Assembly (NCBI GenBank): GCA_018267575.1
Contig: JAFDYF010000051.1
Coordinates: 1-64,000 of the forward strand
Direction of reading: 5' to 3'
Length of the DNA stretch: 64,000 nt
Source of the DNA: Bacteroidota bacterium
GTDB lineage: Bacteria; Bacteroidota; Bacteroidia; Chitinophagales; Chitinophagaceae
The notes beneath the pieces were generated by a model. That model did no database searches and was not told the origin of the DNA. It was given only the letters and a program-made list of their open reading frames with translations. This document shows positions 40,416 through 42,559 of the stretch, in pieces. A program made the position numbers and the translations under genes. Position 1 is the first letter of the stretch, and each line of letters opens with the position of its first letter.

Positions 40416-40955
40416 TTGACTGATTCTTTATTGATACAAGGTTGTGCCGCTAACGAAAGAAATGCCCAGTTTGCTTTCTACCATAAATATTTTCCTTTTT
40501 TGTCGGGAATCTGTTTGCGCTATGTGTTTCAAAAAGAAGTGACTAGGGAAATCACCAATGATGTTTTTATGAAAATATTTAAACATATCGGAGAGTTTGA
40601 TCCGGAAAAGGGCCAGCTTCTAAGTTGGATGAAAGTAATTGCCGTTCATACCTGCATAGATTATTTGAAATTGAAATCCAGCAAAGAAATTTTATTAAAT
40701 ATAGAGAGACTAACTGAGGGCTCAACCGATGCAATCCCAGCGCATGAACTTATAACGAACGATGTACTCAAATACCTTCAGGTATTGCCAAAAAAGCAGG
40801 CTGTTGTTTTTAATTTATATGTAGTGGAAGGTTATTCGCATGAAGAAATTGGATCAATACTACATATTTCAGCAGGTAATTCAAGGTGGCACTTGTCCAT
40901 TGCCAAACAGAGCTTAAAAAAATTAATGTCGGTAAATGGTTATGCAATAAAATGA
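40416..40955 (+). CDS. ECF sigma factor
   Basis: A 179-residue ECF sigma factor. In-frame ATGs upstream are followed by stop codons, so the start is TTG 40416. Region 2 appears in NAQFAFYHKYFPFLSGICLR and EITNDVFMKIFKHI, region 4 in KKQAVVFNLYVVEGYSHEEI and SAGNSRWHLSIAKQSLKKL. The end overlaps the start of the next gene (ATGA), so the two proteins are translationally coupled and the partner is probably the anti-sigma factor. A TTG start may keep sigma levels low (inference). Confidence 0.9.
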   Translation: MTDSLLIQGCAANERNAQFAFYHKYFPFLSGICLRYVFQKEVTREITNDVFMKIFKHIGEFDPEKGQLLSWMKVIAVHTCIDYLKLKSSKEILLNIERLTEGSTDAIPAHELITNDVLKYLQVLPKKQAVVFNLYVVEGYSHEEIGSILHISAGNSRWHLSIAKQSLKKLMSVNGYAIK

Positions 40956-42559
40956 ACAAAGAATACGATCTATATCAACAATACAAAGATTTGCTCGAAA
41001 AAGCAGAACTAACCCCTCAAACAGAAGATTGGGCGGCCATGGAGCAAATGCTGAACAAAGAATTGCCCATTTCAAACATCCCGAAAGGAAATTTGCTTTC
41101 AAAATTAAATTTTAAATCATTCCTCCTCTTTTCTGTTTTAGCTATTTTAATTTCTATTCCCATATTATATATAAATAGTTCAAAAAATAATGAAAGCAAA
41201 AAGAAAATGGAAGCTACATTTTCAAAGAATTTATCTACTGAAAATAAATCAACGATTAAAGGACTTGCTTTATCATCCAAAAATTTGTTAGCTGCAGAAA
41301 ATAAATCTGAAAGAAAGAAAACAGGAAAATCAGTCAATGATTCTTTTGGCAGACATGCAACTGTTTCTGGTGAAAGTGTTGATAACAGCAAGCCTAATAA
41401 CCCACACAACATCCTAAAATTTGAAATAAAAACGCAGTCAATTCAATCCAAGATTGACAATAAAGCCAACGCAATCAGTAAAAAAAATCAGGAGAAATCA
41501 ATGACTTTGTTAGGCGAATTAAGACAAAAAAATAGTACATACAATTCCAATAAAAGGAAATACGAAACGTCTTCAAATGGTATTGCTATAATTAAAAATT
41601 CTTCTACTAAGTTGAAGAATGGTTCAAAAGACAATGACGGATTTGAGGAAATCGAACCACTAAAAGCGATGGTTCCATCAACGGCTAAAAACATACCCAA
41701 AACTTATCAGATAGAGAAACCTTATTTTAATGATTTGCTGCCCAAAAATGAAATCACTGGGCAAAGCGTAAAACCCCGTATAGATCTTACTAGCAATTGG
41801 CAAAATGCATTGAATAAAACCGATTCTATCCTAACAGTTAAATCCCATAAACGCAAAAAGCAAAAGGATATCTCCGACGCCGTTCAAACGGATGGTATCA
41901 TCAGTGATTATAGAAATAGGGGAAATTATTTAGAGCCATTTTCAATCAAAAAAATGGAATGGGGATTGCAGCTTCCAGCCTTTTTCCCGTACGTTAATAG
42001 AGGAAATGCTGTAATCTGGAATACCTTTTCCCCAGGTTTATATGGGAATTTTGATTTAAATCAAAGCTTTTATTTTGGTTTTGTTGCTATTCCGTTTCAA
42101 AGGATTTCTTTGAGTCAAAATCTCTATTCTGATACAGTTCAATTTCAGAATATCTCAGGCAATTATAGCATTAGCAGTACTTTTTATGCCTACGAAATAT
42201 CAACGTTTTATTTTAGATTTCTTGGCGGTTTTCGGCTGAGTAGTCATTTTAGTGCGGAAATAGGACTTGGTACAAATTTTACTTATCAAAGAAGAATTAT
42301 TTTTCAAACACAAAATGATTCGACTGGATTTTATTCTGCCGGACTTGAAATTGCCACCAGAAGCAACCCCGCTCATCATTATTTTAATACTTTTTCAGCA
42401 TCTGGTAATCTAGCTTTTTATTACAACCTGCATAGATGGAATTTTGGGGTTCAATATACGAAAGGCCTGACCAGTTTTTTGAAAGATGTAAGTTCGAGTG
42501 CATTAATCAATCAATTTGATTTAAGTATAAAATTCAGACTAATCAAAAAAGCCAAATAG
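40952..42559 (+). CDS. Putative anti-sigma / outer-membrane beta-barrel hybrid
   Basis: A 535-residue protein whose ATG overlaps the sigma factor stop codon (ATGA). Residues 1-50 are a soluble acidic-to-basic segment with WAAMEQMLNK, typical of the cytosolic sigma-binding end in such pairs; one helix (about residues 53-72) crosses the inner membrane. A low-complexity Lys/Asn/Ser-rich stretch of about 250 residues follows. The last 200 residues (from MEWGLQLPAFFPYV) alternate hydrophobic and polar residues with aromatic girdles and end FDLSIKFRLI, like an outer-membrane barrel of the PorT type. A protein touching both membranes would relay outer-membrane state to the sigma factor (inference). 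Confidence 0.7.
   Translation: MNKEYDLYQQYKDLLEKAELTPQTEDWAAMEQMLNKELPISNIPKGNLLSKLNFKSFLLFSVLAILISIPILYINSSKNNESKKKMEATFSKNLSTENKSTIKGLALSSKNLLAAENKSERKKTGKSVNDSFGRHATVSGESVDNSKPNNPHNILKFEIKTQSIQSKIDNKANAISKKNQEKSMTLLGELRQKNSTYNSNKRKYETSSNGIAIIKNSSTKLKNGSKDNDGFEEIEPLKAMVPSTAKNIPKTYQIEKPYFNDLLPKNEITGQSVKPRIDLTSNWQNALNKTDSILTVKSHKRKKQKDISDAVQTDGIISDYRNRGNYLEPFSIKKMEWGLQLPAFFPYVNRGNAVIWNTFSPGLYGNFDLNQSFYFGFVAIPFQRISLSQNLYSDTVQFQNISGNYSISSTFYAYEISTFYFRFLGGFRLSSHFSAEIGLGTNFTYQRRIIFQTQNDSTGFYSAGLEIATRSNPAHHYFNTFSASGNLAFYYNLHRWNFGVQYTKGLTSFLKDVSSSALINQFDLSIKFRLIKKAK

Follow-up and report, generated by a model that had tools for sequence, protein, structure and literature searches.

A probable Dma-type pair of an ECF sigma factor and an anti-sigma protein with a putative outer-membrane barrel in a Chitinophagaceae genome

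The dual membrane-spanning anti-sigma family of Bacteroidota, called Dma, was published in 2024 (Pardue et al., PNAS, as cited), and Dma2 was published in 2026 (Pardue et al., PMC13088901). According to the latter paper, Dma/Das pairs occur only in Bacteroidota and involve ECF21-type sigma factors; Dma2, which adjoins a Bacteroidota-only ECF21 sigma, is built of an anti-sigma domain, a helix, a long disordered tether and a C-terminal barrel, in this order. In the Dma1/Das1 and Dma2/Das2 pairs of Bacteroides thetaiotaomicron the anti-sigma represses the sigma factor, and deletion of the anti-sigma gene works via the cognate sigma (PMC13088901). The roles known for Dma-type pairs in Bacteroides are in vesicles or glycans. 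In Phocaeicola vulgatus, the M0N98_03760-61 pair consists of a sigma gene upstream of a gene for an unusual anti-sigma of large size, for which a course across the periplasm and a C-terminal outer-membrane barrel are predicted (PMC9308784). Loss of this anti-sigma leads to toxin protection via its sigma factor, and the signal is probably envelope stress (Evans et al. 2022, PMC9308784); the regulon of the pair accounts for longer O-antigen and toxin protection (PMC9308784). The earlier note on the DNA analysed here had regarded such a mechanism as undescribed; however, the B. thetaiotaomicron pairs (PMC13088901) and the P. vulgatus pair (PMC9308784) describe the class. The mechanism class was already described in 2024, and the pair reported below is a further example of it, not a new mechanism.

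The window, i.e., the whole analysed stretch of 64,000 nucleotides (contig JAFDYF010000051.1, assembly GCA_018267575.1), carries a sigma gene and an anti-sigma gene which we read, with a probability of roughly 0.86, as a Dma-type pair in which one anti-sigma protein links the outer membrane to the sigma factor. The ECF sigma gene lies on the forward strand at positions 40416-40955, begins with TTG and encodes 179 amino acids, with Pfam matches over the cut-off to Sigma70_r2 (E 1.4e-10) and Sigma70_r4_2 (E 1.5e-10). The TTG start is reasonable, because it is the earliest start codon after the upstream stop and because the alignment of sigma relatives begins at about query residue 1-6. By its position in the tree the product is Das/ECF21-like: in the maximum-likelihood tree, a branch supported at 98/96 separates the window sigma, its paralogues from the same genome and the named relatives discussed below from FecI-type and other sigmas encoded in the genome. 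The clade thus delimited also holds the sigma partners of the Bacteroides and Parabacteroides barrel anti-sigmas. The branch order inside it is uncertain, and the window sigma sits on a long branch of 1.3-1.4 changes per column.

The anti-sigma gene (40952-42559, forward strand) encodes a protein of 535 amino acids, and its ATG overlaps the sigma stop codon in the sequence ATGA at 40952-40955. Its cytosolic end comprises about 50 residues, and residues 1-43 (40952-41080, forward strand) form a predicted anti-sigma domain on the cytosolic side, which bears the family motif W..M..LL..E.P. A profile of the relatives, built without the window protein, scored this N-terminus at 28.3 bits, while the best of 2000 shuffles reached 9.9. 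The most hydrophobic 19-residue stretch, residues 56-74 (41117-41173, forward strand; mean Kyte-Doolittle 2.52, the maximum, at position 56), is the single predicted transmembrane helix. Lysines are present on either flank of it, thus the positive-inside rule leaves the topology unsettled. Residues 75-329 (41174-41938, forward strand) form a Lys/Ser/Asn-rich periplasmic tether which, as assessed from composition alone, is probably disordered; between residues 76 and 325 it contains K 15.6%, S 12.8% and N 11.6%, carries a net charge of +20 and has no strand pattern (strand-alternation z = 0.4). The anti-sigma contains no Cys, thus it is not a lipoprotein. The whole protein has no match in Pfam or NCBIfam, and a PDB sequence search gave nothing meaningful. 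FecR and FecR_C domains are absent from it by Pfam, whereas the genome's own FecR genes match strongly. These results agree with the features listed in the earlier note, namely an ECF sigma factor with a TTG start, the ATGA overlap, a short cytosolic end, one helix and about 250 residues of Lys/Asn/Ser-rich linker.

The C-terminal residues 330-535 (41939-42556, forward strand) are a putative outer-membrane beta-barrel, in which about eight strands can be counted by eye. The segment contains F 12.6%, Y 6.8% and K 3.9%, and its alternating-hydrophobicity score of z = 3.2 was equalled by 1 of 1000 shuffles. By class, the strand-alternation z amounted to 2.8-3.2 for the window protein and 2.5-4.0 for the Pfam-confirmed barrel paralogues, but did not exceed 1.54 for FecR and other non-barrel partners. 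In hhalign, the alignment with the barrels of the nearest relatives ran end to end and collinearly over 198 columns and scored 21.1 at a probability of only 13%, whereas the maximum among 300 shuffles was 17.3 and no soluble control exceeded 6.2. Several other divergent members of the family scored 15-26 and others near zero, which makes this an insensitive test. The phenylalanine and tyrosine content, the alternation and the collinear alignment all argue against the first alternative, namely that the protein is an ordinary inner-membrane anti-sigma whose C-terminus is a soluble, beta-rich periplasmic domain that senses the periplasm and is destroyed by proteolysis. Some results are in line with such a domain: Pfam found no barrel match in the C-terminus, and an AlphaFold model of residues 325-535 alone, computed from the single sequence without an alignment, had a pLDDT of 28.6 and was not usable. 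Relatives by sigma clade or anti-sigma domain that have no barrel (L073, L085, L116 and L118) also speak for it. A further point against the Dma-type reading is that HMMER with the barrel profile of the nearest relatives gave E 1.7 for the window protein, equal to the level of shuffles. On balance, we consider the soluble domain unlikely. A likeness of the last hairpin, noted by eye, was set aside, as the window protein scored no better than shuffles in this HMMER comparison. The domain order, the sigma clade and the strand pattern favour the reading of the C-terminus as a barrel. The barrel is nevertheless the weakest part of the Dma-type reading, and the comparisons do not establish that it is homologous to any known barrel. 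Thus, of the 'barrel-like' C-terminus claimed previously, the alternation beyond chance (z 3.2) holds, and the fold itself is not proven.

The same genome, in which 35 sigma region-2 matches were found, contains four other pairs with the same layout (L064, L067, L071 and L074), and in all four the barrel matches OMP_b-brl_2 above the Pfam cut-off. In two further proteins of this genome, at L073 and L085, the tail is short and has no barrel. At L116 and L118 as well, this sigma clade or this anti-sigma domain goes with a short tail that lacks a barrel, and the C-terminus of these anti-sigmas appears to be interchangeable. The sigma gene at L096, whose product is close to that of L074, is not followed by any gene recognisable as an anti-sigma. 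Several other sigma genes are directly followed by genes for FecR proteins, five of which were confirmed by Pfam (L072, L079, L087, L091 and L093).

Outside this genome, for 28 of the 40 nearest sigma matches the next protein has at least 380 amino acids and a helix at about residue 25-75. In the C-termini of these 28 proteins the strand-alternation z has a median of 2.3, and the motif W..M..LLD-E is common to the N-termini. Most of their genes begin within 15 bases of the stop codon of the sigma gene, often overlapping it. In sequence records from Bacteroides finegoldii, Parabacteroides distasonis, Bernardetia and Fibrella, genes that come after sigma genes are annotated as 'outer membrane beta-barrel protein' or 'porin family protein'. 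Their N-termini matched the anti-sigma profile at 14.3-18.7 bits (B. finegoldii L183, 14.3; P. distasonis L185, 18.7; Bernardetia L187; Fibrella L188), and the profile gave no match on B. finegoldii L182 (0.5 bits). The barrels of these named relatives match Pfam OMP families, those of L183 and L185 being above the cut-off for OMP_b-brl_2. Together with the four paralogues, the 28 of 40 sigma matches bear out the earlier suggestion that sigma genes beside such hybrids are recurrent. In B. finegoldii (L183:2107-4812) a NigD-like gene is located divergently beside the Dma-type pair, and in P. distasonis (L184) a NigD-like gene lies ahead of a short-tail pair. Some relatives have proteins of 285-346 amino acids (L119, L122, L130, L131 and L134) that carry the anti-sigma motif PP..W..I...LD two or more times and have no barrel.

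The pair is solitary in its genomic context: on the upstream side there is a SusC/SusD-like operon with FecI/FecR, and on the downstream side there are an SDR gene and a SAM-hydrolase-like gene, these names being read from the sequences without a family search. The segment 31455-38573, with FecI-like (minus strand), FecR-like, SusC-like and SusD-like genes, resembles an ordinary FecR-type uptake locus. It had been supposed that the pair replaces FecR/SusC. However, the window has its own FecI/FecR/SusC/SusD-like set and the genome has further sigma-FecR genes; the pair is an addition to FecR/SusC signalling and no substitute for it. The SDR gene still adjoins the SAM-hydrolase-like gene in 16 same-genus genomes, and the sigma/anti-sigma pair was found upstream of SDR in none of the 16. 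As the neighbourhood is maintained without it, the pair is accessory. A search of 120 relatives, among them 32 genomes of the same genus, detected no anti-sigma homologue; sigma homologues do occur in these relatives. The scan of genome contigs yielded one distant relative, and the relative at L032 has 24% identity in a poor alignment.

The long branch of the sigma, the anti-sigma that has no detectable homologue in the genus and the unconserved locus together leave room for decay or altered function. It is conceivable, but in our estimation improbable, that the pair is a lineage-private and recently acquired Dma-type pair whose barrel senses a signal other than those of vesicles or glycans, e.g., phage, toxin or secretion stress. 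Finally, a decaying or non-functional Dma-type copy with a barrel drifted past recognition, for which the branch length, the undetected anti-sigma homologues and the absence of the pair at this site in 16 genomes of the genus could be cited, is very improbable, because two intact frames persist over 2.1 kb with the ATGA coupling kept, the anti-sigma motif is retained along with regions 2 and 4 of the sigma, the strand alternation is as strong as that of the paralogues, and fast divergence is normal here (P. vulgatus anti-sigma orthologues are about 50-70% similar between species, PMC9308784).

Under the Dma-type reading, the N-terminal 45 or so residues would confine the sigma factor to the inner membrane in the resting state, and helix 56-74 would fix the anti-sigma in that membrane. 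The disordered tether of about 255 residues would span the periplasm, and by its length it may be long enough to hang slack across it, with the C-terminal barrel residing in the outer membrane. A change in the barrel, caused by a ligand or by outer-membrane damage or failed assembly, might then travel along the same polypeptide and release the sigma factor, which would transcribe its regulon; the nature of the signal, the release step and the regulon are all conjectural parts of this scheme. The one-protein relay suggested in the earlier note is thus upheld in its architecture, anti-sigma domain and sigma clade, while we infer insertion of the barrel into the outer membrane and binding of the sigma factor. 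The window pair and its four paralogues in one genome extend one-protein two-membrane signalling beyond the studied Bacteroides species, and the motif W..M..LLD-E could gather pairs whose barrels diverge too far for Pfam.

Among the known systems, the FecI/FecR/SusC system with its TonB-dependent transducer is similar to the relay proposed here in that an event at the outer membrane is passed to an ECF sigma through an inner-membrane anti-sigma. In that system, however, the relay consists of two proteins meeting in the periplasm, whereas the window pair has one; moreover, FecI-type sigmas lie outside the clade of the window pair, and the window anti-sigma has no FecR domain. The B. thetaiotaomicron Dma proteins were compared by their published description, and the sequence comparison used the B. 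finegoldii and P. distasonis relatives. Unlike in B. thetaiotaomicron, the barrel here has no Pfam match, the pair lacks a close third gene downstream on its strand, and no NigD-like neighbour or vesicle link was seen for the window pair. Like Dma1/Das1 and Dma2/Das2, the sigma gene adjoins the anti-sigma gene, and the protein has an N-terminal anti-sigma domain, one helix, a long tether and a C-terminal, here putative, barrel. The P. vulgatus pair M0N98_03760-61 is similar as well: in both pairs the sigma gene lies upstream of the gene for a large anti-sigma that is predicted to cross the periplasm and has a putative C-terminal outer-membrane barrel.
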